A stretch of 47,623 nt of DNA from Nitratireductor aquibiodomus NL21 = JCM 21793 (GTDB lineage Bacteria; Pseudomonadota; Alphaproteobacteria; Rhizobiales; Rhizobiaceae), in NCBI RefSeq assembly GCF_000615975.1, contig NZ_BAMP01000026.1, positions 1-47,623 of the forward strand. The letters run 5' to 3'. The position numbers were made by a program, and so were the translations under genes. Below, piece after piece: positions 1 through 42,898 of the stretch. Numbering within the stretch: the first letter of the stretch is position 1; each line of letters begins with the position of its first letter. Below the pieces are notes generated by a model. That model had not been told where the DNA came from. It saw only the letters and a list, made by a program, of their open reading frames with translations, and did not search any database.

Positions 1-140
1 TGGCTGGCCAATGGCGAGCCGCTGCCGGAGGCCTATCGCCGGCGCAGGGCGAACTGGGTGCCCGATGGCGGCGGCGCATCGACCTGACGGTGATCGACGC
101 GGCCGGACGTTCCGCCAGCGTGGATGTTTTTCTGGAATAG
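1..140 (+). pseudogene. pbpC: Penicillin-binding protein 1C, C-terminal fragment (frame broken)
   Basis: This is only the last ~46 codons of a gene entering from the left. Reading from base 1 gives a stretch WLANGEPLP...WVPDGGG that then hits TGA at 85-87. Two frames over, IDLTVIDAAGRSASVDVFLE continues from base 78 to a TAG at 138-140. Joined, they resemble the C-terminal beta-sandwich of periplasmic PbpC (transglycosylase/transpeptidase of peptidoglycan synthesis), which ends in a similar L-T-V-x-D-x-x-G-R-S-x-S-V pattern. The join needs one extra base near 75-77, for example GCC instead of GC before ATC. The stop lies one base from the stop of the convergent sugar kinase. Family assignment is from memory of the motif and the fragment is short, so confidence is moderate. 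Confidence 0.5.
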
Positions 141-141
141 A

Positions 142-1065
142 TCAGGCGGCTTCCGCGAGCGCCTTCAAAACCGTTTCGCGCATGGGCATGGGAGCGACTG
201 CGCCAAAGCCCTGTGTGGAAAGGGCAGCGGCCGCATTGGCGTAGCGCGCGGCCTCGAACGGGTCGCCATGGCGATTGAGCTCGGCGAGGAAATTGCCATC
301 GAACGTGTCGCCCGCACCCGTGGCGTCGACGGCGTTGACCCTGATGCCGGGCACGCGGCGGCGCTCATCCGGCGTGGCGACGAGGCAGCCATCCTTGCCG
401 AGCGTCAGCGCGACGATGCCAGCGCCAAGACCCAGATAATGATCGGCGATGGCGTCCGGGTCGCTGATGCCGACCAGCTGTTCGGCGTCTTCCAGACCGG
501 GAAGCGCGATGTCGGCCTTGCGCATGGCGGCTTCGGTGAGTGCGCGGGCGCGCTCGAGCGGCCACAGCTTCAGGCGCAGATTGGTGTCGAAGGAGACTTT
601 GGTGCCGGCGGCGCGGGCAATGTCTATGGCTTCGAGAACCGCATCGCTTGCATCGGCGCTGATGGCCATGGAGATGCCCGACAGATGCAGAATGTCGGCG
701 TTCTCGATGGCGCTGCGGGGCAAGTCGCGCGGAGCGACGCGGCTCGCCGCCGAACCCTTGCGCAGATAGGAGAAGACATGGCCGTTCTCGCCATGGCTGA
801 CGAAGTAGACACCCGTATGGGCATCCGGGTTGCGCAGGACCTGGCTAGCGTCCACGCCATTGTCTGCCCAGAGCTGCATGAGGCTGTCGCCGAACTCGTC
901 TGCGCCGAGCGCGGTGAAGAACCCGACCGATGCGCCGGCGCGCGCGGCTGCGATGGCGCAGTTGGAGGTGTCGCCGCCGTAGCCGAAGAGATAGCGGCCC
1001 GTGTCGTCCACCTGGTTGAACTCGATCATCGGTTCACCCATGCAGATGATCTTCGGATGGCTCAT
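142..1065 (-). CDS. kdgK: 2-keto-3-deoxygluconate kinase (PfkB family sugar kinase)
   Basis: A 307-residue PfkB/ribokinase-family kinase, predicted to phosphorylate 2-dehydro-3-deoxygluconate to KDPG with ATP, feeding uronate and gluconate catabolism into the Entner-Doudoroff route in the cytoplasm. The N-terminal substrate segment GYGGDTSNCA is at residues 28-37. The family's anion-hole and catalytic motif DATGAGDTFDG is at about 247-257, with the Asp of GAGD as the general base. FDTNLRLKLW at 159-168 is typical of KdgK rather than of fructokinases. ATG at 1065 follows a clear GGAGGAGAA ribosome site. The gene stands alone between a convergent pbpC remnant and a repeat-filled gap. Substrate specificity (KDG rather than another sugar acid) is inferred from the motif style. 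Confidence 0.85.
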   Translation of the reverse strand: MSHPKIICMGEPMIEFNQVDDTGRYLFGYGGDTSNCAIAAARAGASVGFFTALGADEFGDSLMQLWADNGVDASQVLRNPDAHTGVYFVSHGENGHVFSYLRKGSAASRVAPRDLPRSAIENADILHLSGISMAISADASDAVLEAIDIARAAGTKVSFDTNLRLKLWPLERARALTEAAMRKADIALPGLEDAEQLVGISDPDAIADHYLGLGAGIVALTLGKDGCLVATPDERRRVPGIRVNAVDATGAGDTFDGNFLAELNRHGDPFEAARYANAAAALSTQGFGAVAPMPMRETVLKALAEAA

Positions 1066-1186
1066 GACGGTGTTCTCCTCCCCTGACGCTGCGTGCGCTT
1101 CTCTTTAAGCGATTGTGCGCCAATGGTGAATGTCTCTTGGGAGAAGATTTTTCACCATACATGGAGAGCCCGGCCTCAGGACCTGG

Positions 1187-1226
1187 AGCGGTTCATCGTT
1201 TCATGGAAACGCTGCGCCACTCCACC
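1187..1226. repeat. Imperfect palindrome with core GTTTCATGGAAACG (copy 1)
   Basis: The stretch GGAGCGGTTCATCGTTTCATGGAAACGCTGCGCCACTCC is an imperfect inverted repeat centred on CGTTTC-ATG-GAAACG (core 1198-1211). The same 14-base core, preceded by a similar CGGTTC, recurs at 2857-2870. It looks like a second small intergenic palindromic family, distinct from the mosaic element that starts at 1244. Confidence 0.5.
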
Positions 1227-1347: not shown

Positions 1348-2703
1348 GCGGGCGCCGCGACCGAACAGGACGGTGCTGATCGTTGAAAGTATGATGAGCA
1401 CGTCGAGATCGAATGACAGATGCTTGATGTAATAGAGGTCGTAGGAGAGTTTGTTGATCTCTTCCTGGGTTGTGCCCGCATAGCCGGAATTCACCTGTGC
1501 CCAGCCGGTGATGCCGGGCAGCACCATGGTGCGGTGGATGAATTTTGGCTCTTCTGCCTCACTCGCCTGCGCCACATATTCAGCGACGGGGCGTGGTCCC
1601 ACGAGGCTCATTTCTCCGCGCCAGATATTGATGAGCTGGGGAAGCTCATCCAGCCGCAGGCGGCGCAGCACCCGGCATCCCTTTATGATCCGGTCGTCGT
1701 TCGTGCGCGTCGCTCCGCCCTGCCTGCCATGATACATGGTCCGAAACTTGAGCATGTTGAAAGGGCGCCCGCCATAGCCCCGACGGTTTGCACGAAGATC
1801 GCCGGCCCGCCATCGAGGGCCCGGATATAGAGCCAGACTGCAAACCCCAGCGATGGTGATCGGCGCCGTGACGATGACGGCGATGAGATCAAGCGCGCGT
1901 TTCGCTTTGGAATAGTAGATCTGGCTTGGCGTGTAGGCGAGGTGCGAAACGTCGAACGCGCCCACATCCACGCGGCCTTCGCGCAGCTCGAGAAAGTTGA
2001 ACCAGGGGGTAACGTCGACCCCGACCATGTAGGCCTTTGTTAGGAAGGTCGACCAATCCGGGTTGTGGTGTGTTCTGGTGTCGATCAGCAGTCGGTCATA
2101 GGCGCCGATATCCGCTGTCTTGTCGCTGATCACAGCCACATGGCCTGCAAGCCTCGCTGCAACCTGAGCGGCCTGAGGGAAGTCGAGCAGGGCAACGCGG
2201 TCCTCCAGAGACCGGTGAAGCCTCAGATTGGCGACGATCATGGCGATCGTGGCGATCGGGTAGGCCGTCAGAAGAGCCGAGTAGCTCACCGGAATGCGCA
2301 GGCCGGACAGAACCGCGACAGCCACGTTGAAACACACGAAGGTGACGAAGATCGCGATGGAAAACGTGTTGCGCTGCCTGCGAAAGCCAAGCAGGGCCAG
2401 CGCGACGGCGAAGGGCAGCAAGAAAAGCACCGAGCAGACGATTGCCAGATTGTTCCAGTCGCTGCGTGATGCGTTGAGAATGAAAGCGCTGTAGATCATG
2501 CACTGCAAAATGCCGGCGGCCAGAATCTCCGGCAGCATGGGGCGCAGGTTTCGCAGCAGGCGTCGCTGGCGCAGAGATGCACCGTGCTGGAGCACGTCCT
2601 CCAGGTCGGGGCTGGGCTCGGCTGGGCTGCGTTTCAGAACGCGCCTGGCGCTGCGATTGGCGGGGCCGTCATCCTTGCCCGCTGGTTTGGACACGTCGTT
2701 CAA
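1345..2703 (-). CDS. Exopolysaccharide/undecaprenyl-phosphate sugar transferase (contains a scrambled segment)
   Basis: A 452-residue membrane protein of the bacterial sugar-transferase (ExoY/WcaJ, polyprenyl phosphosugar transferase) family. It would load the first sugar phosphate onto undecaprenyl phosphate for exopolysaccharide synthesis. Hydrophobic helices fill about residues 58-160. The catalytic domain follows from about residue 265, with KFRTM, DELPQLINIW, LVGPRP and PGITGWAQVN. Between about 1786 and 1848 the translated frame gives a non-family stretch (VCSLALYPGPRWRAGDLRAN). A neighbouring frame there gives the conserved LYIRALDGGPAIFVQT, directly before RRGYGGRPF. One extra G in the GGGG run at 1845-1848 and one missing C near 1787 explain this, so the reading frame survives with about 21 wrong residues. 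The start is a TTG at 2703 (an in-frame GTG at 2694 is possible). No ATG is available. Confidence 0.85.
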   Translation of the reverse strand: MNDVSKPAGKDDGPANRSARRVLKRSPAEPSPDLEDVLQHGASLRQRRLLRNLRPMLPEILAAGILQCMIYSAFILNASRSDWNNLAIVCSVLFLLPFAVALALLGFRRQRNTFSIAIFVTFVCFNVAVAVLSGLRIPVSYSALLTAYPIATIAMIVANLRLHRSLEDRVALLDFPQAAQVAARLAGHVAVISDKTADIGAYDRLLIDTRTHHNPDWSTFLTKAYMVGVDVTPWFNFLELREGRVDVGAFDVSHLAYTPSQIYYSKAKRALDLIAVIVTAPITIAGVCSLALYPGPRWRAGDLRANRRGYGGRPFNMLKFRTMYHGRQGGATRTNDDRIIKGCRVLRRLRLDELPQLINIWRGEMSLVGPRPVAEYVAQASEAEEPKFIHRTMVLPGITGWAQVNSGYAGTTQEEINKLSYDLYYIKHLSFDLDVLIILSTISTVLFGRGAR

Positions 2704-3002: not shown

Positions 3003-3952
3003 ATGCACCGCCAAGCCTATGTCTTTCTCTGCCTGACCACGCTCTTCTGGGGCGGCAATGCCGTGGCCAGCCGGCTGGCTGTCGGCCATGTTTCGCCGAT
3101 GATGCTGACAACGCTTCGCTGGGTCATTGGCTGTGCGCTGCTCGCTGCCTTTGCCTGGCCGCATCTCCGGCGTGACTGGCCGGAGATCCGGCCGAAGCTG
3201 CCGTTACTGGCGGCGCTGGGCACGCTCGGTTTCACCGGGTTCAACGCTGTTTTCTACAGTTCCGCCCAGTTCACCTCGGCCATCAACATCGCCATCGAGC
3301 AGGGTGCGGTGCCGATGGTTATCTTCGTTGCCAATTTTGTCCTGTTTCGCCAGCGCGTGAGTTTTCTGCAGATTGCCGGCTTCGTTCTGTCTCTGGTCGG
3401 CGTAGCGCTGGTTGCCAGCCATGGCGCGTTTTCCCGCCTTCTCGACCTGAATGTGAACTTTGGCGACGCGCTGATGCTTGTCGCCGTCCTGCTCTATGCG
3501 GGTTACACGGTCGGGCTGCGGTTAAAGCCGAATATTCACTGGCTGAGCCTGATGTTCGTGCTCTCGTTCTTTGCGCTTCTGGCGTCCCTGCCGCTGGTGG
3601 CCTGGGAGATCGCGACCGACCGGCTCATCGCCCCCGACTTTCAGGCTGGATGGTGGTGTTCTACGTTGTGCTGTTCCCCTCCATCTTCGCGCAGACGCTT
3701 TATATTCGCGGCAATGAGCTGATTGGCGGTAACCGCGCCGGCCTGTTCATCAATCTGGTGCCGATCTTCGGAACGCTCCTGTCGATCGTCATTCTGCGTG
3801 AAGCCTTCTTCACCTATCACGCCGTCGCGCTGTTCATGGTGCTTGGCGGGATATGGCTGGCAGAGCATGGTGGCCGGAAACTGGCTTCCAGAGCTTCAGG
3901 CCGCAAAGTGGAGCCTGGTTTCGGGAATTCCGACACTCCACCAACAGGATAG
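3003..3952 (+). pseudogene. EamA/DMT-family transporter, split by a one-base frameshift
   Basis: A ten-helix drug/metabolite-transporter (RhaT/EamA) family permease, probably a small-molecule exporter of the inner membrane; the substrate cannot be told. The first frame runs from ATG 3003 (MHRQAYVFLCLTTLFWGGNA, typical EamA N-terminus) through about residue 216. It then turns into non-family sequence after GGATGG at 3648-3653. The second EamA repeat continues in another frame from 3650 (VVFYVVLFPSIFAQTLYIRG...) to a stop at 3950-3952. One added G (GGATGGGTGGTG) restores a continuous protein of about 316 residues, the usual length. The C-terminal ~20 residues are encoded by a decayed intergenic repeat. 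Confidence 0.8.
3890..3944. repeat. Decayed copy of mosaic module A inside the EamA 3' end
   Basis: The sequence AGAGCTTCAGGCCGCAAAGTGGAGCCTGGTTTCGGGAATTCCGACACTCC aligns by eye with module A of the mosaic element as seen at 9994-10042 (GAGCATCGGACCGAAAAGTGGAAACCGG...TTCCGATGCTC). It has scattered substitutions and keeps the same order of blocks. It lies within the coding 3' end, so the C-terminal tail of the transporter (about RASGRKVEPGFGNSDTPPTG) derives from it. Confidence 0.5.
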
Positions 3953-8462: not shown

Positions 8463-9951
8463 ATGGCGGATTTTTCTGCGGTTCTGAAGAAGACGATCGA
8501 GGCGTTGTCGGAAAACACTCCGGCGGCGCGCGAGCGCATCTATCAGAAGGCCCGGACAACGATCGAGAACAAGCTTGCGGGCATGGACCCGGCGCCGTCC
8601 GCTGCGGTGGCTGACCGCCAGCGCAAGCTGCTTGAAGACGCAATCGCCAAGGTCGAGGCCGAATATGCGCCTCCGCCCCAGCCTGAGGAACCAGCACAGG
8701 ATGAACTAGACCAGATCTTTGCCGAACTGGATGTCGATCCGGCGAAGCCGGGTGTTTCCGTTCCTCCCGCCTTCGAGACGCCGGCTCCGACGCCGGAACC
8801 TGCTCCCCCGGCTGCGGAAGCGCAGAAGGAAGCCGAGGCTGCGTCAGAAGGGAGCGAAACGGACCATGCCGTGCGCTCCGAAGCGCCGATCTCGTCTTCA
8901 GGTGAGGATGTCGCCCTGGAGACACCTCCGCCGCCGCCGCGCGCCAGGCCGCGCAAGGGTGGAGCTTCCGGGCTGGTCGCCGGGCTGGGTGCTGCTCCTC
9001 GTGGCCGCCATTGCCGCCGGCGCCTGGTTCTACAGGGACGATCTCGCCAGGCTCGCTGATTTCGAGGGTGATGGGCAGACGGTTGCGGAGAGCGGTGAGA
9101 GCGGCTCGGAGGCAGGAGAAGGCGCACCGGCGGATACTCAGGGAACCGAGCAGGCTGCAGCCGAGAGCGGTGGTGCTGAGACCAGTCCGCCAGCCGAGCC
9201 GGCGCCGGTTCGTAAATTTACCCAGCGGCTGCTCGAAGATGGACGCGAGGTCGATGAGGGCCCAGCCGGTGGAGAACCCGGTCTTGGCGAAGGCACGTCC
9301 GTGGCACAGGCAACGGTGCAGGGCGATGAAACAGCGGTGCAACCGGCACCGGTTCAGAACGGTCAGCCGGAGAGCCCGGGCGCCGGCGAAGCGCTGCCCG
9401 TGGGCCAGAAGGCGATCTTCTATGAAGAGCGCACGAGCGTTTCGCAGGGGTCCGCGGATCTCGGCGCGGTCGTCTGGTCCGTGGTGCAGGAATCGCCCGG
9501 CAACGATCTTCCACCCGAGCCGGCCATTCGGGCCGATGCAACGATCCCCGAGAAAAATCTGCAGCTCAAGATGACGATCCGGCGCAATGCCGACGAGTCT
9601 CTGCCGGCCAGCCATATTCTCGAGATCATCTTCCTCACACCGGACGATTTCGACGGCGGTGGTATCGACAATGTCCTGCGTGTGTCCCTGAAGCGGTCCG
9701 AGCAGGATACGGGCAATCCGCTGCTTGGCATCCCGGCCAAGATCGCCGACGGCTTCTTCCTCGTTGCGCTCAGCGACAGCACTGCCGATGCCGAGACCAA
9801 TATGCTCCTTCTGCGCCGCCAGAGCTGGATCGACATACCCGTGGTCTACAAGTCGGGACGCCGTGCGCTTATCACGATTGAGAAGGGCATTCCCGGTGAG
9901 AAGGTTTTCACCGATGTGCTCAACGCCTGGCAGAATGCGACGAGCGGCTGA
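8463..9951 (+). pseudogene. Large membrane-anchored Pro/Ala/Glu-rich protein of unknown function, frame broken
   Basis: The first frame starts at ATG 8463 (MADFSAVLKKTIEALSENTP) with a helical N-terminal domain, then a long proline/alanine/glutamate-rich linker (about residues 70-165). It then degenerates. The neighbouring frame takes over at GWSPGWVLLLVAAIAAGAWFYRDDL, a clear single transmembrane helix. That frame continues through another acidic low-complexity linker into a ~170-residue folded C-terminal domain (from about YEERTSVSQGSADLGAVVW) ending at 9951. Removing one G from GGG at 8957-8959 joins them (...RPRKVELPGWSPGW...) into about 495 residues. The layout is a cytoplasmic N-domain, one membrane pass and a periplasmic C-domain. 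I do not recognise the family. It follows purA by 75 bases. Confidence 0.65.
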
Positions 9952-9980
9952 CGGGACGGTGGCTTTCCCGCAAGTTGCTT

Positions 9981-10085
9981 AGATCGTTGATGGAGCATCG
10001 GACCGAAAAGTGGAAACCGGCTTTCGGATTATTCCGATGCTCTACAGCGCCGCGCGTTTTACAAGACGCGCAAAGGACACTGTAA
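9981..10085. repeat. Mosaic intergenic palindromic element, copy 2 (inverted)
   Basis: Module A (about 9990-10042: GATGGAGCATCGGACCGAAAAGTGG...ATTCCGATGCTC) is followed by a more diverged module B (10046-10085: AGCGCCGCGCGTTTTACAAGACGCGCAAAGGACACT). It lies in the opposite orientation to the copies at 1244 and 47097. It sits between two convergent genes, downstream of the membrane-anchored protein and the rpoH terminator. Confidence 0.75.
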
Positions 10086-10097
10086 CACTTTCAAATG

Positions 10098-10146
10098 ATG
10101 CATGTTCGTTGTCTTTCAAATGAACTCATTTGAAAGCGACATGCAT
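10098..10146. repeat. Nested double palindrome
   Basis: An inner perfect palindrome TTTCAAATGA-AC-TCATTTGAAA (10114-10135) is enclosed by an outer perfect pair ATGCATGT (10098-10105) / ACATGCAT (10139-10146). A further direct copy of TTTCAAATGA lies immediately before, at 10090-10099. The structure is separate from both the mosaic repeat and the rpoH terminator. No function is assigned. Confidence 0.7.
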
Positions 10147-10161
10147 TAGAAACAACCTCAA

Positions 10162-10193
10162 AAAAAAGCCGGCGGGAGACCACCGGCTTTTTT
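10162..10193. terminator. Bidirectional rho-independent terminator after rpoH
   Basis: AAAAAAGCCGG-CGGGAGACCA-CCGGCTTTTTT gives a GC-rich stem extended by A/T pairs, with a T run on either strand. It lies 29 bases beyond the rpoH stop and would also end rightward transcripts. Confidence 0.85.
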
Positions 10194-10221
10194 CAGTTCA
10201 TGCAAGTTGCACGTTTCCGTA

Positions 10222-11145
10222 TCAGGCGCCTGCCTGGCGGTGTGCCTCGGCTGCCATGGCCTTGGCGGCCAGTGCCTGCTGGCGAGCCGAGTTCTGCACC
10301 GCTTCCTGCACCTTCTCGAAGGCGCGGACCTCGATCTGGCGCACGCGCTCGCGGCTGATGTCGAATTCACCCGAAAGCTCTTCCAGGGTCATCGGATCCT
10401 CGGAAAGGCGCCGGGCCTGGAAAATGCGCTTCTCGCGATCGTTCAGCACCGACATGGCGTCGCCGAGCATGCGGCGGCGGGTTTCCAGTTCGTCCTGCTC
10501 GACCAGCAAGTCCTCCTGGCTTTCGCCATCGTCGACCAGCCAGTCCTGCCATTCGCCCGATTCGCCCTCGGTCGCCCGGATGGGCGCGTTGAGCGAAGCG
10601 TCGCCGGACAGGCGGCGATTCATCGAAATCACCTCTTCCTCGCTGACATTGAGGCGCGTGGCGATTTCCGAAACCTGTTCGGGATTCAGGTCGCCGTCAT
10701 CGAGTGCCTGAATCTTGCTCTTCACCTTGCGAAGGTTGAAGAACAGGCGCTTCTGGTTCGCCGTAGTGCCCATTTTCACGAGGCTCCACGAGCGCAGGAT
10801 ATATTCCTGGATCGAGGCCTTGATCCACCACATGGCATAGGTGGCGAGACGGAAGCCGCGCTCCGGTTCGAATTTCTTCACGGCCTGCATCAGGCCGACA
10901 TTGCCTTCGGAAATGACTTCGCCGATCGGCAGGCCATAGCCGCGATATCCCATGGCGATCTTGGCCACGAGACGCAGGTGGCTCGTCACGAGCTTGTGTG
11001 CAGCCGCCGTATCGTCATGCTCTGAATAGCGCTTGGCGAGCATGTACTCTTCCTCGGGCTGAAGCATGGGGAAGCGGCGAATCTCCTCCAGGTAGCGGGT
11101 CAGTCCGCCTTCACCTGAAGCGATGCTGGGTAATGTCTGGGCCAT
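10222..11145 (-). CDS. rpoH: RNA polymerase heat-shock sigma factor sigma-32
   Basis: A 307-residue sigma-70-family factor that directs RNA polymerase to heat-shock promoters. Region 2 is complete (LVTSHLRLVAKIAMGYRGYG, DLI-like GEVISEGNVGLMQAV, FATYAMWWIKASIQEYILR with family spelling RLATYAMWW). The RpoH box follows as NQKRLFFNLRKVK (about 129-141), and region 4.2 as MTLEELSGEFDISRERVRQIE. The RpoH box separates it from the primary sigma factor. Length is normal. ATG at 11145 has a strong GGAGGGTGCTTA ribosome site. Two rpoH paralogues are common in this order; which one this is cannot be told from the window. Confidence 0.96.
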   Translation of the reverse strand: MAQTLPSIASGEGGLTRYLEEIRRFPMLQPEEEYMLAKRYSEHDDTAAAHKLVTSHLRLVAKIAMGYRGYGLPIGEVISEGNVGLMQAVKKFEPERGFRLATYAMWWIKASIQEYILRSWSLVKMGTTANQKRLFFNLRKVKSKIQALDDGDLNPEQVSEIATRLNVSEEEVISMNRRLSGDASLNAPIRATEGESGEWQDWLVDDGESQEDLLVEQDELETRRRMLGDAMSVLNDREKRIFQARRLSEDPMTLEELSGEFDISRERVRQIEVRAFEKVQEAVQNSARQQALAAKAMAAEAHRQAGA

Positions 11146-11344
11146 TTAAGCACCCTCCTTTGCCGGATATGCTCATGCGGGGACGCCTTGAAAACCTGGC
11201 GTTTGCTGGAATGAGAGACAGCGCGACCATCTTTGATGCATCGCACCATATCCTATATAGGAACGAATTCCGACGGTTAAAGTTTCATCCTGCTGTCAAC
11301 ATTATGTCACCAGGCGGTGAACAATAATATTATTGTACCGATAA

Positions 11345-12394
11345 TTACAAAATATCCAGCGCGCTTGTCAATGCCATCATGTCGGGAGGCGGATCGGCCT
11401 CGAAACGCATGAGGTCACCGGTCTCCGGATGGCGGAAAGCCAACAGGCGCGCATGAAGAGCCTGACGCGGAAAAGCGGCGACTGTAGGGCGTATGTCTTC
11501 CGGCAGGCGGTTTACCTTCGTGCGGAATGCGCGGCCATAGTCCGCGTCACCGATAAGCGGGTGACCGATATGGGCCATATGGACACGGATCTGATGGGTG
11601 CGTCCGGTTTCCAGCCTGCATTCCACTTTCGCGGCAAACGCCTTGCCGCTGCCATCGGCTCCGTAACGCTTCTGCACCTGATAGCGGGTCACCGCGTGGC
11701 GCGCATCGCTGCGCCCCGTCGGCACGACGGCTCGCAATGTCCGGCTCTGTGCATGGCGCCCGAGCGGGGCGTCGATGGTCCCCGCCATCCGCTCCGGTGC
11801 ACCCCAGACGACGGCGACATAGGCGCGCTCCAGGTCGCCGCTCCGGCCGTGGTCGGCAAAGGTCTCCGAAAGAAGGCGATGGGCATTGTCCGTCTTTGCA
11901 ACGACCATGACGCCGCTTGTATCACGGTCGAGGCGGTGCACGATGCCCGGCCTGCGCACGCCACCAATGCCCGAGAGTGAGGCGCCGCAATGGTGCAGCA
12001 GCGCATTAACCAGCGTGCCCGACCAGTTGCCTGGGGCGGGGTGGACAACAAGACCGGCCGGTTTGTTGATCACGATCAGTGCATCGTCTTCGTAGAGAAC
12101 CTGAAGCGGAATCGCTTCGGCTTTGGGCTCGGCAGGCTCCGCTTCAGGTATTGTCAGCGCGTAGACCTCGCCCTCCGCGACCCTGTGCTTCGTCTCGGTG
12201 ACCGGGTTTTCGTCCGTCGTCACTGCACCGGCGCGGATAAGCGTCTGAAGGCGGCTGCGTGAAACGGACGCGCCCAAACGGCTCGAAAGCCAGCGATCAA
12301 GCCGTTCTCCGGCATGTTCTGCTTCGACGGTAAACGCTTTGCGCGCACTCGTGTCTTCCCAATCGTTGTGGTCTTCGGTATCAGGATCGCCCAT
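11345..12394 (-). CDS. rluD: Ribosomal large-subunit pseudouridine synthase, RluA/RluD family
   Basis: A 349-residue RNA-modifying enzyme of the RluA family, predicted to isomerise uridines of 23S rRNA. It has an N-terminal S4 RNA-binding domain (RLDRWLSSRLGASVSRSRLQ), then the synthase domain with the signature GIVHRLDRDTSGVMVVAKT containing the catalytic Asp of HRLDRDT. ATG at 12394 (MGDPDTEDHNDW) is preferred over one at 12433, which would run into the divergent neighbour. It diverges from the DUF6476 gene 26 bases away, a pairing often seen in this order. RluD rather than RluC is suggested by length and by the S4 domain, not proven. Confidence 0.88.
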   Translation of the reverse strand: MGDPDTEDHNDWEDTSARKAFTVEAEHAGERLDRWLSSRLGASVSRSRLQTLIRAGAVTTDENPVTETKHRVAEGEVYALTIPEAEPAEPKAEAIPLQVLYEDDALIVINKPAGLVVHPAPGNWSGTLVNALLHHCGASLSGIGGVRRPGIVHRLDRDTSGVMVVAKTDNAHRLLSETFADHGRSGDLERAYVAVVWGAPERMAGTIDAPLGRHAQSRTLRAVVPTGRSDARHAVTRYQVQKRYGADGSGKAFAAKVECRLETGRTHQIRVHMAHIGHPLIGDADYGRAFRTKVNRLPEDIRPTVAAFPRQALHARLLAFRHPETGDLMRFEADPPPDMMALTSALDIL

Positions 12395-12420
12395 TGGAAC
12401 TGCTTTCGAAACGGTGAGAC

Positions 12421-12795: not shown

Positions 12796-12797
12796 CC

Positions 12798-13199: not shown

Positions 13200-13250
13200 A
13201 ACCGCTGTTGCATTTGCCGGCGAAGGCGACTATATCGCCGCAATCGCTGC

Positions 13251-25669: not shown

Positions 25670-25674
25670 TATCT

Positions 25675-27517: not shown

Positions 27518-28639
27518 GCGCATGCGGCACGACCGGCCGTGCCCTTGAGCGCGGTCTGGCGGGCGCTGGAGGCTCTATGCCCGGGATGATGTTGCCGGAG
27601 ACTGCGTAAAGCGTCAGCAATGCAGGGATCGCAATGAACCCGCCGATGGGTCCCCACATCCAGAGCCAGAATGCGATTGCCAGAAAAACGATGAAGGGGT
27701 TGAGCGTCATCCGCCGGCCGATAACGGTTGGCGTGACGAACTGTGCCTCGATCGCGTTTAATCCCAGATAGGTCAGCGGCGGCAGGAAACTCGCCGTCAG
27801 AGTGTCGAAAGTGCCAAGCCTACGGCCAGCAGAACGCAGGCCATCACCGCCGGACCGATATAAATCACGAAGTTCAACAGTGTCGCCATGGCTCCCCAGA
27901 GGGCGGGAGAGGGGACGCCGAGCAGCCAGAGGGCGATGCTGACAGCGATCCCAAGACCGATATTGATGATCGTGATCGACAGCAGATAGTCCGAGACCGC
28001 GTTCTCGACGTCGCGGAAGATGTGGGCAACGCGCCAGCGCAGACGACGATTGAAACAGAGGCGCAGAATGGCCGCCCGCGTTTCGTGCCGGGTGGCCACG
28101 AAGAAATAGAGACTGGCGAAGAAGATCAGCAATTGTGCCAGCAGCGAGGGGGCGAGCACTGCCACATTCTCCACGGTGGTGTCTTCTTTCACCGCTACCG
28201 TCACACTTGAGCCTCCGGTGACAGACCGAATCTGCTCCTGAAGGTCCTTGATCGTGTTGAGGGGCTGTCTGAGACTGGAAAGCTGCAACTGCAGTTCGTT
28301 CCATATCTGGGGCAAGCGGTCGGCCCAGGCTGTAAGCGGGGCCGCGATGGCGGTCAGAAAGCCGCCCACAAGCGCGATGAAGATCAGCACCACGACGACC
28401 GCCGAGACGGCCGGCCAGACGCCGACCCGTTCCAGGCGCGTGGCGATGGGGCCGAGCATCAGGCCGATGAAGACCGCGAGCGACATGGGCGCGAGCAGGA
28501 AGCGCCCATAGTGCAGCGCGACAATGAAGGCAAGCAGACCCAGGAACAGAACCGAAGCCTGCGCGCCATAGGTCAGCGCCATGTCAAGCGTCATGATATG
28601 CGAGCTTTTGCCCGGGCGGTTCCGTGATGCGTCATCCAT
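27447..28639 (-). pseudogene. AI-2E/PerM-family membrane protein, split by a frameshift
   Basis: A seven-to-eight-helix inner-membrane protein of the AI-2E transporter (PerM/YdiK/TqsA) family; in this family substrates vary and are mostly unknown. The first frame runs from ATG 28639 (MDDASRNRPGKSSHIMTLDM) for 280 codons and stops at 27797 after AVGLALSTL. The neighbouring frame continues the family sequence as FDTLTASFLPPLTYLGLNAIEAQFVTPTVIGRR and NPFIVFLAIAFWLWMWGPIGG. It ends at 27447 after a proline/arginine-rich tail. Adding one base near 27812 (GGCCACTTT for GGCACTTT) gives about 397 residues. The tail overlaps the crp-like gene on the other strand by 71 bases. A GGAAC-N16-CGCT element about 30 bases upstream is a one-mismatch EcfG promoter candidate. 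Confidence 0.85.
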
Positions 28640-29903: not shown

Positions 29904-30412
29904 ATGAGCGATGCCGCTGAAGTTCTCAAGCCGAAAACCCATGCGGAGAAAATGAACATTGGTCTTTCCGAAGCGGACCGAAAGGAGATTTCGGCCGGTC
30001 TTTCGGAGATACTCGTCGATACCTATCGTCTCCTGATCAAGACGCATATCTACCACTGGAACGTGGTCGGTCCGCTGTTCCACTCGATCCATGTGTTGAC
30101 CGAGGAACAGTATAACACGCTGTTCGAGGCGACCGACATCATTGCCGAACGCGTGCGGGCGCTGGGTCATCACGCGCCCATCCTCAGCGGCAAGGGCGTC
30201 GACACATCGATTGAGCTTCGCGCCTCCGGCCGTTCGGCGCTGGAGATGGTTCAGGATCTGGTCGACGATCACGAGGAAGCCGTGCGCAAGATGCGCGAGA
30301 TCGGCACAAAGGCGGATGAAAAAGGCGACCTTGTCACAGCGACATGCTCACAGACCGGCTGACCTTCCACGAAAAAGCGCTGTGGATGCTGCGCGCGATC
30401 ATTGCCGATTGA
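29904..30412 (+). CDS. dps: Dps-family DNA-binding ferritin, C-terminus frameshifted
   Basis: A Dps protein that oxidises and stores iron and protects DNA from peroxide. The ferroxidase residues are present in THIYHWNVVGPLFHSIH and EATDIIAERVRALGHHAP. The uninterrupted frame ends at 30362 after DLVTATCSQTG (152 residues). The expected final helix, MLTDRLTFHEKALWMLRAIIAD, lies in the next frame and ends at TGA 30410-30412. One extra C near 30343 (ACCATG for ACATG) gives a normal 169-residue protein. ATG 29904 follows AAGGAGAAACCC. A strong terminator follows. Confidence 0.9.
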
Positions 30413-31505: not shown

Positions 31506-31597
31506 CTAAGGATGCAAACGGCCACACACCAATCCTCCCTGGCAGGTTCGGTTCGGTGCGTGGCCTGTACAGAAACACTGCACACGGAGAGCTTATC

Positions 31598-32628
31598 ATG
31601 TTCCGCAACCTTTTGGCGACCACCGCTATTGCAACGCTTGTCGCGACCGGCGCGGTCGCACAGACGTCGACCACCACGGGAACTGGCGCACCGGCTGCTG
31701 CACCCACCGAGCAGCCCACTGAAATGGTGGTGCGCGCTGACGGCCACCTGGCCACCGATCTGATCGGCAAGACCGTTTACAATGGCACCGGCGAAGACGC
31801 CGAGAACATCGGCGAAGTCAACGACCTCGTCCTTGATGAAGAAGGTGAGGTAAGCGCCATTGTCGTTGGTGTCGGCGGCTTCCTCGGCATCGGTCAGAAG
31901 GAAGTTGCACTTGAGTACGATCTGGTCGAATGGGCCGAGCAGGATGGCGACCGCTGGCTCGTCGTAGAGACCACGGCCGATGCGCTCAAGGCCCAGGAAG
32001 AATTCGACCGCTCTGCCTATCGCCCGATGCCGGCCGATGCAGAGGTCTCGGAAGCGAAGCCTGCTTCCAAGGACGATCTGGCCAACGCGCCGGTCAAGGC
32101 TGACGAGAACGCGGAAGAGACCGCGATGGCGCCTGCAACCGATACGATGGGCGGCAACGAAGCCGCGGATACCGATGGTATGGCGGCGGCGCCCGCTCCG
32201 GAGACGGATTCTTCCACGGCTCCCGCCGGTCAGACGGCGGATGCAGAGCGCCCGGCGACAGATGACACGATGACGTCCGCCATTGACCGCTCAAGCCTGC
32301 AGGAGATGCCGGCGAATGACATCCGCACCGAGCAGCTCACGGGCACCACGGTCTATGGTGCCAATGAAGAGAATATCGGTGAGATCGGTGACGTTATCAT
32401 CTCGCAGGACGGCAACGTCGATGCCATCATCGTCGATGTCGGCGGCTTCCTCGGCGTTGGCGAGAAGGAAGTGGCCATCGGCATGGACAATCTCGCTTCA
32501 TGACCGACGGCAACGGCTCGCTCTATCTCTACACCGAGTTCACGCAGGAAGAGCTGGAGCAGCAGCCAGCCTACGACGAGGCGAGCTATGGTGAGCGTCG
32601 CGACGAAATGCGGATGCAGGTTCAGTAA
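31598..32628 (+). CDS. Exported protein with two PRC-barrel domains, 3' end frameshifted
   Basis: A Sec signal peptide (MFRNLLATTAIATLVATGAVAQ) is followed by a Thr/Ala-rich linker. PRC-barrel domain 1 (about residues 50-120: LIGKTVYNG...ENIGEVNDLVLDEEGEV...GGFLGIGQKEVAL) and a ~100-residue acidic Ala/Pro linker come next. PRC-barrel domain 2 repeats the pattern (TVYGANEENIGEIGDVII, GGFLGVGEKEVAI). The frame stops at 32503 after DNLAS. The natural continuation FMTDGNGSLYLYTEFTQEEL runs in the next frame to TAA at 32626-32628. One extra C near 32496 (GCCTTC for GCTTC) gives 343 residues. An EcfG promoter upstream puts this periplasmic protein in the stress regulon. The partner or ligand is unknown. 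Confidence 0.88.
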
Positions 32629-32799: not shown

Positions 32800-33731
32800 A
32801 TGCTTACCCATATTGAAGGCATTCATCACATCACCTCCATGGCGCGGGATGCGCAGGTGACGGACCGTTTCATCACCGATACGCTCGGCCTGCGCCGCGT
32901 GAAGAAAACCGTCAATTTCGACGCGCCGGAAGTTTATCATCTCTATTATGCCAACGGCACGGGCCGGCCCGGCACGGTCATGACCTACTTTCCTTTTCCC
33001 AACATCGTTGCCGGCAGGCGCGGGGCGGGCGAAGTGGGAGCGACCGTCTATGCCGTTCCCGAAGGCAGCCTCGATTTCTGGGAGAAGCGTCTTGAGGAAC
33101 ACGGTGTGACCGGTCTGGCGCGCGAGACCCGTTTCGGCGAGACGCGCCTGCTTTTCGACGGTGTGAATGGCGACGCTTCGCCTTGAACGAGATGAAAGAT
33201 GACGCGCGGGAACCGTGGAATCGCGCGGGGATTGCCGACGACGTGGCAATCCGTGGCTTTCATTCCGCTTCGCTGGTGCTGCGCGACCGTCGCGGCACCG
33301 AGGCGCTTCTTTCGCTGATGGGTTACGAGCCGCTTGCCGAAGAGAACGGCATACTGCGCATGAAGAGAGGCGGCGGCAATGGCGCTGACCTGATCGACCT
33401 CGAAACCCGCCCGGATGCGCCCGTGGCGCGGCAGGGTGCCGGCTCTGTCCATCACATTGCCTTTGCGGTTGCCGATGATGCCGCGCAACTCGCCGTGCGT
33501 GACGCACTGGTCGCGGAAGGCTTTCAGATCACACCGGTGATCGACCGGGATTATTTCCACTCCATCTATTTCCGCGCCCCCGGGGGTGTCCTCTTCGAGA
33601 TCGCCACCAACGAGCCGGGTTTCGCCAATGATGAAGACATGGCCCATCTGGGCGAGGCGCTGAAACTGCCCAGCCAGCATGCGCATCTGCGCGAGCGGCT
33701 CGAGGCATCGCTGCCGAAAATCGGAGGCTAG
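32800..33731 (+). pseudogene. Ring-cleaving dioxygenase, VOC family (MhqO-like), frame broken
   Basis: Two VOC halves form one extradiol-type dioxygenase of about 310 residues, the family that cleaves hydroquinone-type rings. The first half begins at ATG 32800 (MLTHIEGIHHITSMARDAQ, with the metal His in GIHHIT) and runs to LLFDGVNGDASP, stopping at 33184-33186. The second half continues in the next frame (NEMKDDAREPW...IRGFHSASL..., second metal His in SVHHIAFAV, Glu in VLFEIATNEPG) to 33731. Adding one C near 33175 (GACGCCTTCGCC) joins them as GDAFALNEMKDD. The hydrolase starts three bases after the stop. The pair resembles the mhqO-mhqD quinone/electrophile detoxification operon. Confidence 0.85.
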
Positions 33732-33734: not shown

Positions 33735-34354
33735 ATGGCGACCGACAATTACGTCCATCACCTGGCCTCTCAAGGGCCGGGAAAGCCGCTCCTGTTTCTC
33801 TTCCATGGAACAGGCGGCGACGAGCGCCAGCTCCTGCAGCTGGGTGCGGAGCTGCGCCCGGAGCCGGCCTTGTGGCGCCGCGTGGCGATGTCAGCGAACA
33901 GGGTGCGGCGCGCTTCTTCCGCCGCACCGGCGAGGGCGTCTACGACATGGGCGATCTTGCGCGGGCGGCCGGCCGTATGCGTGAATTCATCGCCGCTCAT
34001 GTGGAGCGGGAGAGACCGGGTGCGGTTCTTGGTCTTGGCTATTCAAACGGAGCCAACATTCTTGCTTCCGTGGCCTTTTCCGCGCCGCAGCTCTTTGATG
34101 CCGCGGTGCTGATGCACCCGCTGATCCCGTTTGCGCCGGTCTGGGGCGAGGGTGCAGTGCGGACGCGGTTTCTGGTCACGGCGGGGCGGAAGGATCCAAT
34201 CTGCCCGGAACGGCTCACCACACGGCTCACGGATTATCTCGAGGATGCCGGTGCAGAGACCGAGATCGAATGGCACGAGGGCGGGCACGAAATCCGTCCG
34301 AACGAAACCGTGGCGGCGGGGCGTTTTCTGCTGCCGTTTCTTGAGGGAGAGTGA
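33735..34354 (+). pseudogene. Phospholipase/carboxylesterase-type alpha/beta hydrolase (MhqD-like), frame broken
   Basis: An alpha/beta hydrolase of about 206 residues when repaired. The first frame (ATG 33735) gives FLFHGTGGDERQLLQLGAEL, with the oxyanion motif HGTGGDE. It should continue into APRGDVSEQGAARFFRR, which lies in the neighbouring frame from 33872. That frame has the nucleophile elbow LGYSNGANI (Ser), the acid in AGRKDPICP (Asp) and the His in WHEGGHEI. One extra base near 33872 (TTGGTGGCG or similar) restores the protein. It is in an operon with the dioxygenase upstream and overlaps the acetyltransferase region, whose ATG is at 34357. Confidence 0.85.
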
Positions 34355-34356
34355 AA

Positions 34357-34650
34357 ATGAGTGTGAGTGAATCCATCATTGTCGAAGACACTGACAGCAA
34401 GGGGCGGTATCTCTATCGCGCCGATGGCCACGAGGCCGAGATGACTTTCTCCAAGATCGGCACCAGTCAGATCATCATTGACCACACGGATGTGCCGGAC
34501 GCCTTTCGTGGGCAGGGTGTCGGCCTCGCGCTGGTCACGCGCGCCGTGGAAGATGCGCGCGCCAACGGCATCAAGATCAGGCCGCTATGCCCCTTCGCAG
34601 CCGCCCAGTTTCGGCGCCATCCGGAATGGGCCGACGTTCTGGCGCGCTAG
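34357..34650 (+). CDS. Small GNAT-type N-acetyltransferase (YjdJ/CG subfamily)
   Basis: A 97-residue acetyltransferase of the short type. The acetyl-CoA loop VPDAFRGQGVGLALV contains the R/QxxGxG/A motif, and the C-terminus IRPLCPFAAAQFRRHPEWADVL is characteristic of the subfamily that carries a conserved Cys-Pro. The acceptor is unknown. ATG 34357 follows GAGGGAGAGTGAAA and is two bases after the hydrolase stop, so it is the third gene of that operon. Confidence 0.85.
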   Translation: MSVSESIIVEDTDSKGRYLYRADGHEAEMTFSKIGTSQIIIDHTDVPDAFRGQGVGLALVTRAVEDARANGIKIRPLCPFAAAQFRRHPEWADVLAR

Positions 34651-36192: not shown

Positions 36193-37127
36193 TTATGCCA
36201 GTTTCCCGGTCTTGATTTCGACGGGGGTGGGTTCGCCGCGCTCGGCGAGAAAATCGGGCCGTGCCTTCGCCGCGCCGTATGGCTCTTCGAGCCGGTTCGA
36301 AACGGCGTTAAACACGAAGAAGGCGTTGGAGCGCGGAAACGGCGTGATGTTTCCATTGGAGCCGTGGATCGTGTTGCAGTCGAACAGCACCAGCGTGCCG
36401 GCCTTGCCCGTGGCAGCGGTGATGCCATGTTCGTTCGCCAGCTTGCCCAGCGCCTCATGCGAGGGCACACCCACTTCCTGTTTCTTCAGCGAAGATTTGT
36501 GGTTCTCATCGGGCGTTTCGCCGGCACAGGCGATGAACTGTTTGTGCGAACCCGGCATCAGCATGAGCGGGCCGTTCATTGCGTCATTGTCGGTCAGGAG
36601 CAGCGAGGCGGAAACGGCACGCATGCGCGGCATGCCGTCCTCGGCGTGCCAGGTCTCGAAATCCGAGTGCCAGTAGAATTCCTTGCCGGTGAAGCCCGGC
36701 TTGTAGTTCAGCCGCGACTGGTGGATGTAGACCTCGTCGCCGAGAAGGAAACGGGCGATGCCCGCAACGCGTCGGTCGCTGGCCAGTCGGTTGAAGAGGG
36801 AGCTCTGTTCGGGCAGCTTGAAGATGGTGCGGACCTCATCCGAGCCGGGCTCGGTGATCACGCTGCCATCCATCAGATCGCGCTCGCCATTGCGCATGGC
36901 GGCGGATTCCGCCTTCAGCGCCTCGACCTCTTCAGCCGTGAAAATATCTTTGAGGATCAGGAAGCCGTCACGGTCAAACTGGTCGGCCTGCTGTGCTGTC
37001 AGAGCGCATCGGGGCGCCACTGGCTCCATACGGTTCGGTCCTGCCGGGGCAGCCAGCGTTCTTCAGGCAGCCTGCTGGGATAGGGATCCTGACTTCTTCG
37101 GTCACGTTCCTTCGACATCGCTGTCAT
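36193..37127 (-). CDS. ectD: Ectoine 5-hydroxylase, N-terminus frameshifted
   Basis: A non-heme Fe(II)/2-oxoglutarate dioxygenase (PhyH family) that makes 5-hydroxyectoine. The iron ligands are in FYWHSDFETWHAEDGMP (His and Asp) and FDCNTIHGSNGN (distal His). The uninterrupted frame begins at a Met at 37029 and lacks the conserved N-terminus. That N-terminus, DPYPSRLPEERWLPRQDRTVW, is encoded upstream in another frame from ATG 37127, which has an AAGGAGAACGACC ribosome site. One extra C near 37002 (CTCCTGACAG for CTCTGACAG) gives a 311-residue protein of normal length. Without the repair the enzyme would lack a start signal. Confidence 0.92.
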
Positions 37128-37616: not shown

Positions 37617-38905
37617 TTACTCCGCTGCGATTTTTGTGTTCTGGGTTGTTTCGGCGACGGCAGACTGAAGAATATCCAGACCGCGCGCAAAGGTTTCCTG
37701 CTCGATGTTGAGCGGGCAGAGGATTTTCACCACCTCGTCATGCGCGCCGGAGGTCTCGATGATCAGCCGTCGCGGAAGCAGCGCTTGCAGATGTCGCCTG
37801 CCAGCTCGCCTGAGCCCACATCCACGCCCATCATCATGCCACGGCCCTTCACGCGGGCATCGGGCAGAAGCGCGGCGATCTCATTGAGACGCTTTTCGAG
37901 ATAGGCACTGCGCTCGGCAATCGTGGCGCGGAACGTGTCGTCCGCCCAGAATTTCTCAAGCGCCACGCGCGCGGTGACGAAGGCATGGTTGTTGCCGCGG
38001 AAGGTGCCGTTGTGCTCGGCCGGGCCGAATACGTCGTATTTCGGCTTCACCAGAACCGTTGCGAACGGAAGGCCGTAGCCCGACAGCGATTTCGCCATGG
38101 TGATGATGTCCGGCGAGATGCCCATCTCCTCGAAGGAGAAGAAATTGCCGGTGCGGCCGCAGCCTGCCTGAATATCATCAATGATCAGCAGCGCGCCATG
38201 GGCGCGGGCGATCTCGCTCACCCGGCGGACCCATTCACGGGACGCTGCATTCAGCCCGCCTTCACCCTGCACGGTTTCGAGCAGGATCGCTGCCGGTTTT
38301 TCAACGCCGCTGGAGGGCTCCGAAAGCATCCGGTTGAGGAGATCGGCCGTGTCGATGTCGCCGCCCATCGCGCCGTCATAAGGGATGCGCGTGACATGGT
38401 TGAGCGGCACGCCGGCGCCGCCGCGATGATAGCCATTGCCCGTGGCTGCCAGCGCGCCAAGCGTGACGCCATGGAAGCCGTTTGTGAAGGACACGACATT
38501 CTGGCGTCCCGTCACCTTGCGGGCGATCTTGAGTGCCGCCTCGATGGCGTTGGCACCCGTAGGGCCGGTGAACAGGACACGGTGATCCATGTCGCGCGGG
38601 CGCAGAATGAGACGCTCGAAGGATTTGAGGAACTCGGCCTTGGCATCGGTGTGCATGTCGAGCCCGTGCGTGACGCCGTCGCGCTCAATATGCTCGATCA
38701 GCGCGGCCTTCATGTCCGGGTCGTTGTGACCATAGTTCAGGCTCGAGCAGCCGGCCAGAAAGTCGATGTAGTCCCGGCCTTCGGCGTCTGTCAGGGTCGA
38801 GCCCTTCGCCTTGGTGAACACGGTCGAGAAGCTGCGGCAATAGCTGCGCGCTTCCGATTCGCGTCGCGTAAAAATCTGCTTGTCGTCCGTCGTAACGGTC
38901 GTCAT
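37617..38905 (-). CDS. ectB: Diaminobutyrate-2-oxoglutarate transaminase, C-terminus frameshifted
   Basis: A class-III PLP aminotransferase that makes L-2,4-diaminobutyrate from aspartate semialdehyde, the first step of the ectoine branch. [32 protein letters not shown] and the PLP lysine in [11 protein letters not shown] are present. From ATG 38905 the frame runs for 380 residues and stops at 37763 after [10 protein letters not shown]. The family C-terminus ([20 protein letters not shown]...) follows in the next frame to TAA at 37617-37619. One extra base near 37767 (GGCCTG for GGCTG) gives 429 residues, the usual length. Confidence 0.94.
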
Positions 38906-38951
38906 ATCTATTCCTTCGGATTGATCGGTCGTGCGAATTGGGACGCCGCTA

Positions 38952-39554
38952 TCAGGCTGCGTCGTCGCTCCGGGCCTCGTCTGCCTTGCGCAGAGAAATC
39001 CAGTTTCCGCGTAAATCGTCGGATGCACCTTCGGCGAACTGGATTGTCACCATGTGCTCGGTGGCATGCTTGCCATCGAAATGCGCATCCTTGCGGAAGT
39101 AAGGCTCGTGGCTGAGTTCACCGCCGCGCCTGCGGGCGAGTGAGGAAAACAGGCCCCAGCTTGCCTTGTTGTCGGAGGTGATGGTGGTCTTGAGTGCCTG
39201 CACATTTTCGCAGGCTTCCCGGTCGAGCAGTGCGGCAAGCAGCTTCTTGCCGACGCCCATGCCCTGGACACTCTGGTCCACGGCGACCTGCCAGACGAAC
39301 AATGTGTTGTCCTCGTCCGGCAGAAGATAGGCCGAAACCCAGCCCACCAGCGCTCCATCGCTGGTTCTTTCGGCGGCGATACAGGTGTCGCCGAAATGGT
39401 CGCACTGCAACAGATTGCAGTAGAGTGAATTCTCGTCGAGCGGCTCGCAGGACTGGATGAGCCGCCACACGTCCGCGCCGTCTTCCTTGCGCGGGGGGCG
39501 ATAGACAATTTCGGGCGATCGCTTGCGTACAAGCTTGATATCAGTGGTGGCCAT
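38952..39554 (-). CDS. ectA: L-2,4-diaminobutyrate N-gamma-acetyltransferase
   Basis: A 200-residue GNAT enzyme that acetylates diaminobutyrate with acetyl-CoA, the second step of ectoine synthesis. The acetyl-CoA motif QSVQGMGVGKKLLAALL and the family segments YRPPRKEDGADVWRLIQSC and SLYCNLLQCDHFGDT are intact. ATG 39554 follows GAGGAGACCA; longer in-frame starts would run into the promoter region. It is the first gene of the leftward ectA-B-C-D-ask operon and is divergent from the MarR regulator. Confidence 0.96.
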   Translation of the reverse strand: MATTDIKLVRKRSPEIVYRPPRKEDGADVWRLIQSCEPLDENSLYCNLLQCDHFGDTCIAAERTSDGALVGWVSAYLLPDEDNTLFVWQVAVDQSVQGMGVGKKLLAALLDREACENVQALKTTITSDNKASWGLFSSLARRRGGELSHEPYFRKDAHFDGKHATEHMVTIQFAEGASDDLRGNWISLRKADEARSDDAA

Positions 39555-40252: not shown

Positions 40253-40268
40253 GAGAGGGTAAAGACGC

Positions 40269-40877
40269 ATGTTCGGGACGTCGATGCAGCGTGAATGGCT
40301 GACGGATATTGTCGAAAGCCTGCCGTCGCTGGTTTTTGTCGCGCTGTGGCGCAGTGGAGCAGATCAGGAACTGACGGGCTGGATCGGGACAGGGCTTGCC
40401 GCATGCATGCTTGTGGGCTTCCGTGTCTGCCGCTGGCGGTTCCACCCGGTACTTCTCGGCATCAACATCCACCTTCTCGTGATCACGCCGCTGATCGTCG
40501 GCCTCTACCGTTTTGGCATCCCCGCCTGGGGGGACGCCATTGTCGAGGTCGCTTATAAGGGCGTTCTGATCACTATCTTCGTGACCGGATGCGCGCTGGT
40601 CTTCACGCGCCGGGGCTTTATCGGCGTCGACGGGGCGCCGGGCGCTCATCGCCCTTATTCGCTGGCGCTTCTCATTGCGTCTGCGATCACGATCCTCTGG
40701 TCCTTCTTCCTTGCCAGCGGCGGCCCGCTCATCACGGTCGCTCTCCCGGTTATGGGGCTTTTCGGGCTTCGTCGCTTCCTTCTGGCGCGACTTGCCGACC
40801 GTGACGGTGCAGCCGGTGCGCTGGTGCCAGTCGGAGCCGGCGCAGCGCTTGGCGCCGCCTCCATGGATGACACCTGA
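40269..40877 (+). CDS. Multi-pass membrane protein, unknown function
   Basis: A 202-residue protein with five to six hydrophobic helices (LTGWIGTGLAACMLVGF, LLGINIHLLVITPLIVGLY, KGVLITIFVTGCALVF, LALLIASAITILWSFFLA, LITVALPVMGLFGLRRF). The layout resembles septation-protein-A-like or other small permease-like families, but no diagnostic motif is seen. It starts 16 bases after ectR and may share its transcript. Convergent with the DUF4139 gene. Confidence 0.6.
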   Translation: MFGTSMQREWLTDIVESLPSLVFVALWRSGADQELTGWIGTGLAACMLVGFRVCRWRFHPVLLGINIHLLVITPLIVGLYRFGIPAWGDAIVEVAYKGVLITIFVTGCALVFTRRGFIGVDGAPGAHRPYSLALLIASAITILWSFFLASGGPLITVALPVMGLFGLRRFLLARLADRDGAAGALVPVGAGAALGAASMDDT

Positions 40878-40883
40878 GAGTGA

Positions 40884-42898
40884 TCAGAGCCCGTCGATAA
40901 ACGCCCGCACCTCGCCGCTCAGGCGTTCCATCTCGGTTTCTGCCCGGGCTCTCTCCTCGCCAAGCGAGGCGATCCGGTTTTCCTGTTCTTCAAGCATGCG
41001 CATATAGCGTTCTGCCAATGCGCTTTCGCGGGGGACCGACCCCAGGTTGTCGCGGATGCGGGCCTGGTCTCCGGCGGTTCGTTCCAGCGCCTGCCGTACA
41101 TTTTCGAGTGTGCGTTCGGCAGTTATTGCCTCACGTTTGAGCGCGGCGAGCGCCTTCAGTTTTTTTGTGGTTTCGTCGTCGGTTGCCGAGCCGGCCCAGA
41201 CATAGAGCGCGTCGGCGCTGGCATCGATCAGGGCGAAGTTCTCCGTGCGGCTGCGTTCCATCACCGTCCTGACGGTGGATTTCCCTCCGGCCTCTACAGT
41301 GGCGCGCAGGCGGTAATGCGTCGGCGTGGCGCTGTCGAGCGCATCGGAGGACATCTGCCATCCGTCACGGCGCGGGTGCTCGATCAGAACCGTGCGTTTC
41401 GCATCCGCAGCGCCCTTGATCGCATAGGTCGTGGTGATCCGCGAAACCGTCGTCGTGCGCAGGATGCCATCGGTGATGGCCGCCTTTCCGAGGATCTCGT
41501 GCGGTTTCGTTTCGGTTGTGATCTCGACCTTGCGGTCGCTGGCGAAGCTCGCCATTCGGCTTTCTCCGGCGGGAATGCCCAGAAGCTGTGCATCGCCCAC
41601 ATAGCCGCTCGCCCCGTCATAGACCGTGACGATGCCGGGCGGCAGGCTTGCCTCGGTGTCGTTTCTCAGAAACACGGCTGCGACCGGGTGGATCCTGCCG
41701 TTTTCAGGCTGGAAGACCGAGACCCGCTCTGCCCGGACCTTGGCGTCCACGAACGGCACGGAAAGGCTTTGCCCTGCTGCGAGGTCGATGGCATTCGGCA
41801 GTTGGTAAGTGGCGCTCGTCTCGCCCTCGTGCGCCTGGCTGCCATTGGTCGGTGCCGAAGGTCCATAATGGCCATATCCGCAATCGGGGCGGGTGCGGCT
41901 GCTCCTCCCAGGGCGCGCATGCGCCGGGGGGCGGCGTTCATTTCGGCCATCTCGATGCCCGCTGCATCGTCCGGCCGCGGCGGCGCGGCGTTGCCCACGG
42001 CAACGGGAATGTCCGCGCGTTCGCTCCAGTAGCGCTGATGCAGCTTCTGGGCGAGCGTCACCGGTGCGCCAGAGGAAAGCGTCAACCCGATGCCTTCCCA
42101 GTCTTCGCCGGTCGCGTTTTCGATCACCGCCCAGGCCTGCAGGCGGGCGGTCTCCTCTCCGGCCGAAACCAGCCGGTAGGCGGTCTTCCAGACGGGCGCC
42201 GGCACCACATAGGAGAGGGCGATGTCGCGCGCGCCCGTTCCCGATAGTGTGACCGCCACGGAGCGGATGGCATCGGTGCGCCCGCGTCCGCTCACCTTCG
42301 CGGCCTCCCGCAGCCGCTCCCGCATCGCCTCGTCGCGGATATCGAGCTGGGTGTCGGTTCCAAGCTTGAGAATTTCAACCGTTCCATCCGCCGTCATCAC
42401 CGAGAGAACCCGCTCGATGCGGGGATCAGTATCGCTGCCCGTCTGTTGCGTGTCGACACCGAGAATCATGCCTTCGACGGTGCGTCCGCCCGAGGTGGCC
42501 CGCACGGAGACGCCCTGAAGCGCAGCCGCCAGCGCCGGAACGGATCCCATTTCACCGGGGCTGAAGGGCAGCCGCCGGAACGTCTCCTCAACCGGCGAGA
42601 GCCCGTCGAGCGTGACGGCATCGATCGTGCCTGCGGGATCGCTCACTACGAGGCTTTTCAGAAAATCATCCACCTGGTCGAGCGGAATGTCGATGCGCAG
42701 CGTGCCGTCTCCGTCGATGCGAGCAGAGCGCCTGACCTCGGCCAGCCCGCCGGATGAGAGCGTGATTCTTTCTATTCTCCCGCTATCGATGATGTCGGCA
42801 AGGGCCGGTGGCACAGCCTGAGCAAATGCAAAACAGGCGCCGAACAGGGCGGTGCGGGCAATTTTCCGGTTCACGCCGGGGAAAGGTTTCGCTGTCAC
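40884..42898 (-). pseudogene. DUF4139 domain protein (MuiA-like), split by a frameshift
   Basis: A secreted or periplasmic protein of about 671 residues when repaired. The signal peptide (ARTALFGACFAFAQAVPPALA) is followed by an N-terminal domain with IERITLSSGGLAEVRR, as in mucoidy-inhibitor MuiA-type DUF4139 proteins. A middle DUF4139 region and a C-terminal coiled coil (EREAL...RMLEEQENRIASLGEERARAETEMERL) follow. The first frame (ATG 42898) reads correctly to ADMAIMD near 41863 and then degenerates. The second frame gives TNGSQAHEGETSATYQLPNAIDL and runs to 40884. One extra G near 41863 (ATGGGACCT) joins them. Function is unknown. Confidence 0.82.

Follow-up and report, generated by a model that had tools for sequence, protein, structure and literature searches.

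The Ion Torrent PGM sequencing platform produces high-frequency indels (HFIs), which recur at given positions (Bragg et al. 2013, PMC3623719). Among strand-asymmetric HFIs, deletions of C and G dominate and homopolymers of two to three bases account for 82%; among all HFIs, only 29% fall within homopolymers (PMC3623719). Such errors are mostly not repeated from one sequencing run to the next. Ion Torrent and Proton data make up over 50% of the RefSeq exclusions for many frameshifted proteins (PMC7604302). Nitratireductor aquibiodomus JCM 21793 has been set aside as one of five strains without 12-28% of core genes, and four of these five had less than 90% CheckM proteome completeness (PMC11092082). 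The JCM 21793 assembly accession has been used for strain NL21 (PMC10185800). The draft genome of this marine bacterium comprises 4,513,145 bases in 207 contigs. Here, we analysed one entire contig of it (NZ_BAMP01000026.1, 47,623 bases; hereafter the window, labelled C182), in which an earlier note had described at least 13 one-base frame breaks in 12 genes and ascribed them to homopolymer-length errors.

Alignment with the orthologues of relatives, a check that the note had proposed, confirmed 13 breaks in 12 genes, none of which occurs in the relatives aligned. Judging from these sequence comparisons, the breaks are in all likelihood base-calling or consensus errors of the draft assembly, almost certainly an ordinary artefact and not a real biological feature. 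The sequencing chemistry or the consensus caller would have undercalled short C/G runs, mainly runs of two to three within A-G-C(2-3)-T and its complement, with one and sometimes two bases lost per event throughout the genome. The note's choice of sequence error over biology is borne out by broken essential genes for which no second copy was found, unchanged selection in broken genes, a uniform rate of breaks, and clean congeners. Roughly one gene in five will appear truncated or absent in this assembly, and completeness scores, core-gene sets, pseudogene counts, and pathway calls (such as ectoine synthesis) taken from it will be wrong.

Frame breaks in the window

The window region is colinear in the related genomes G001, G002, G004, G008, G003, and G007, as judged from the purA-ectB spacing and DNA alignments, and the mean DNA identity of its aligned parts with G001, G002, G004, and G008 is 84-85%. 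The named loci nearest to the window ectB gene belong to Nitratireductor (sp. B36, isolate pb3, N. aquimarinus, an uncultured metagenome-assembled genome, N. pacificus, N. soli, and others). Gene models (47) were built in the congener G001, and the alignment of each took in the window together with as many as six further relatives. The window contains a counterpart for 44 of the 47, and 11 of these 44 bear 12 frame changes private to the window. The pbpC gene, which is cut by the contig edge and failed the coverage filter, was aligned separately with six relatives by chosen coordinates and supplies the thirteenth break. Gene 14 (paired shifts common to G002, G004, and G008), genes 13 and 15 (shifts near the start, common to G003 and G007), and gene 16 in G006b (wrong paralogue) were set aside. 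The affected runs are mostly just two to three bases long. The breaks, as placed by the alignment with relatives, are listed below with the gene and its matching family.

82..84 (break at 82/83), plus strand: pbpC 3' end at the contig edge, one base short relative to six of six relatives (BiPBP_C and Transpeptidase in the G001 orthologue)
1785..1786, minus strand: -1 break in the bacterial sugar transferase gene, 1345-2556 (PF02397)
1845..1853, minus strand: net +1 break in the same sugar transferase gene, most plausibly two bases lost from a short C run
3643..3644, plus strand: -1 break in the EamA transporter gene, 3003-3913 (PF00892)
8983..8990, plus strand: +1 break (one-base gain) in the gene downstream of purA, 8463-9951 (a search for a Pfam family in this gene found none)
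27818..27822, minus strand: -1 break in the AI-2E family transporter gene, 27447-28639 (PF01594)
30339..30340, plus strand: -1 break in the Dps/ferritin-like gene, 29904-30412 (PF00210)
32496..32497, plus strand: -1 break in the PRC-barrel gene, 31556-32628 (PF05239)
33174..33175, plus strand: -1 break in the putative dioxygenase gene, so labelled in the earlier note, 32800-33731
33853..33854, plus strand: -1 break in the alpha/beta-hydrolase-like gene, 33735-34360 (weak hydrolase matches, one above the cut-off)
37004..37005, minus strand: -1 break in ectD (ectoine hydroxylase), 36193-37118 (TIGR02408)
37766..37769, minus strand: -1 break in ectB (diaminobutyrate--2-oxoglutarate transaminase), 37617-38962 (TIGR02407)
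41867..41868, minus strand: -1 break in the DUF4139 gene, 40884-42700 (PF13598)

The gene families first proposed from the sequence agree with the intact G001 orthologues wherever checked, the hydrolase matches being weak. The proposed list of breaks stands as well, with some places shifted by up to about 30 bases, as in pbpC, the EamA gene, and the hydrolase gene. Downstream of purA, the break had been put at 8957-8959, and the alignment relocates it to between approximately 8983 and 8990. Two events had been read as +1; the one downstream of purA is indeed a one-base gain, whereas the one assigned to 1845-1848 aligns as a two-base loss. In the same region, the two-contig genome G004 has four private one-base gains (genes 5, 8, 16, and 40), opposite in sign, which perhaps come from a long-read consensus.

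Extent across the genome

Five other contigs were compared with G001, G002, and G008. Over 82 genes, this genome showed 14 frame changes, 13 of which were accepted; the remaining one lies at residue 13 of a C191 gene of 417 amino acids, before the conserved start (the profile match begins at residue 23), and was dropped. The same 82 genes, treated by the same method, contained no breaks in G002 or G008 relative to G001, and none pointing to G001, which speaks against a chance effect. A census against G002 covered 13 contigs including the window. Its 569 model-contig trials yielded 358 with a counterpart, from which one row was dropped as a wrong paralogue (C182:19817-21391, nine shifts). The remaining 357 genes (352,944 coding bases, without overlap or double counting) include 72 with frame changes, which amount to 79 net changes, 69 of them -1 and 10 of them +1. 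The ten net +1 changes consist of five two-base losses, one pair of separate one-base losses, two one-base gains, and two doubtful gene starts. The entry at C172:3848, a single net change in the count, combines two separate one-base losses, and three doubtful entries were kept among the 79, namely C163:3745 and C199:15391 (gene starts) and C194:39630 (start, long gap).

Coding sequence contains roughly one break every 4.5 kb, and the numbers per contig are consistent with a single rate over the 13 contigs (chi-squared 8.5, 12 degrees of freedom, p = 0.74). Scaled to the whole genome, approximately 900 such breaks would be expected. The proportion of affected genes genome-wide, 72 of 357, accords with the original estimate of about a fifth; in the window, it is 12 of 45. 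The longest break-free gap in the window spans 18.9 kb (from about 8,990 to 27,818), with P = 0.019 for 13 uniform points, a value calculated for a gap picked post hoc. We considered whether this stretch represents protected genes and rejected the idea, the counts per contig fitting one rate; the contrast drawn in the earlier note with clean genes, among them the pst-phoB stretch, is thus attributed to chance.

The draft is 86.61% complete with 2.14% contamination. Completeness reaches 98-99% in seven of nine congeners and is 90% in G005 and 86% in G008. G008 consists of one contig and is free of private frame breaks in the compared regions, which means that something else accounts for its low score. 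A 23S rRNA search gave no match in four of seven genomes (this genome, G001, G005, and G006, of which G001 and G006 are nearly complete); rRNA may be absent from these four assemblies or withheld in them.

Sequence context of the shortened runs

Run lengths were compared with those in G002 only where the neighbouring bases agree, a method blind to lengthened runs. A strict filter kept 34 shortened runs, and a relaxed filter giving 68 runs was used for the length and context counts. These 68 comprise 39 C/G runs of two to three, 25 single bases (13 C/G and 12 A/T), and four A/T runs of two to three, such that 52 of the 68 are C or G when single bases are included. Shortening of C/G was seen at 13 of 73,529 single bases, 26 of 21,862 runs of two, 13 of 3,076 runs of three, and 0 of 451 runs of four or more, the rate climbing from length one to two to three. 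The corresponding counts for A/T were 12 of 50,994, 3 of 9,042, 1 of 1,781, and 0 of 474. When C/G runs of at least two that are shorter than in G002 were counted across genomes (window genes 13-16 being omitted throughout), this genome gave 7/5,422 and 4/2,435 (11/7,857 in total), G001 0/5,884 and 0/2,790, G008 1/6,129 and 0/2,830, and G004 0/1,928. The five congener comparisons together contain a single shortened run in 19,561.

The commonest event shortens a C or G run of two to three after G by one base, chiefly in A-G-C(2-3)-T and its complement. With complements pooled, 33 of 13,379 C runs of at least two that follow G were shortened, compared with 6 of 12,009 other C runs (Fisher p = 4e-5). 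When A precedes that G, the count is 19 of 2,040, compared with 14 of 11,339 when it does not (p = 3e-8). Over the 13 contigs including the window, 11 of 426 sites of the form A-G-C(2 or more)-T were shortened, and none of 3,314 G-G-C+ runs was. The context was discovered and tested on one and the same data set. It may serve as a read-free signature for other assemblies of the same origin.

These counts bear on the type of error. Under an ordinary homopolymer-length error, accuracy would drop with run length whatever the neighbouring bases. Many events do consist of one base lost from a C/G run, and up to a length of three the rate rises with run length, as such an error predicts. However, neighbouring bases strongly alter the rate at equal run length, and runs of at least four were not shortened at all, a weak objection given that only about two C/G cases were expected. 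In a recount with blastn, coding runs of at least four were shortened in 0 of 388 cases for C/G and 1 of 388 for A/T; outside genes, where real indels are expected, the numbers were 2 of 108 and 5 of 128. We therefore regard the plain homopolymer type as improbable, though still the best placed of the alternatives. The original diagnosis holds in so far as the breaks are sequence errors, and its homopolymer component probably gives way to undercalling of C/G runs of two to three in a specific context.

The platform behind such undercalling is probably a flow-based one, most likely Ion Torrent PGM. We take it that Ion Torrent instruments were used to sequence type strains of Japanese culture collections. 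The breaks resemble PGM HFIs in being deletions of C and G in short runs scattered over the genome (PMC3623719). The dominance of C/G deletions is reproduced here (52 of 68 shortened runs are C/G, and 69 of 79 changes are -1). The concentration in runs of two to three is also found, at 43 of 68 (39 C/G and four A/T) with none longer, which is weaker than the published 82% (PMC3623719). HFIs occur once per 1-2 kb in reads, whereas this consensus has roughly one break in every 4.5 kb of coding sequence, and the A-G-C(2-3)-T context is not mentioned in the excerpted HFI description (PMC3623719). Literature searches for the motif yielded no more than circumstantial support. Assemblies excluded or flagged for many frameshifted proteins show the same symptom as the present one (PMC7604302, PMC10228379).

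Essential genes, selection and decoding

We considered and rejected real gene decay, programmed frameshifting, altered decoding, and RNA editing on the basis of the alignments, codon phase, substitution ratios, sequence context, and essential genes. Single-base deletion in short runs is also a natural type of mutation, and recent decay through true frameshift mutations in the strain would take the same form. The genes affected argue otherwise. The mraY, adk, and ftsW genes are each found at one place in the draft, in pieces, and are whole in G002; ftsW is broken twice. A search of this draft for second copies of mraY, ftsW, and adk found none. MurF, FtsQ, and an NAD synthase are likewise broken. 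Essential single-copy genes are thus not spared as pseudogene formation would require. Measured against G002, broken genes have a nonsynonymous/synonymous ratio of codon differences of 0.252, and intact genes one of 0.257; none of the 30,840 codons in broken genes is a nonsense codon, compared with 2 of the 85,405 in intact genes. Neither the relaxed selection nor the nonsense mutations typical of pseudogenes were found in broken genes, and nonsense codons are nearly absent beside 79 frame changes. The equal ratios and the lack of any nonsense codon in broken genes therefore speak against decay, as does the absence of breaks in the congeners across the 82 genes compared. We know of no mutational hotspot at A-G-C(2-3)-T, which also counts against it. 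Taken together, decay is very improbable.

Several observations weigh against the attribution to context-dependent undercalling. The draft is incomplete and might for that reason lack the second copy of some essential gene. A low completeness score proves nothing on its own, because G008 scores 86% without frame breaks. Among the 68 shortened runs, the 25 single bases and four A/T runs lie outside the motif; a number of the single-base cases probably reflect a gap set next to a substitution. At A-G-C sites outside genes, 0 of 685 were shortened, where about 1.6 would be expected at coding rates, too few to judge. The blank count for C/G runs of at least four, a length class in which classical flow-platform errors are favoured, compares with about 1.9 expected at the rate for runs of three (P = 0.15). 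Against the assignment to that platform in particular, Ion Torrent single-base indels in Listeria lay in runs of mean length 5.5, mostly of A, in a count that took in only runs of three or more (PMC12046094).

Programmed frameshifting or altered decoding at the break sites would account for a context shared by many sites and for protein sequence that stays conserved past the break. A conserved site fixed relative to the frame was not found: the orthologues of relatives are in frame, and the starts of the affected runs are spread over all three codon phases (5, 17, and 18 of 40), unlike what a decoding rule would produce, which makes this explanation exceedingly remote. The affected runs are 21 sense C and 18 sense G. 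With all codon phases represented and sense C and G nearly equal, neither decoding nor strand-specific editing fits. By the same observations, and by the match to a known platform error, it is very unlikely that the DNA truly lacks the bases and that the cell puts them back after transcription by a bacterial RNA editing that inserts C or G at A-G-C(2-3)-T and its complement, a reading as far-fetched as programmed frameshifting.

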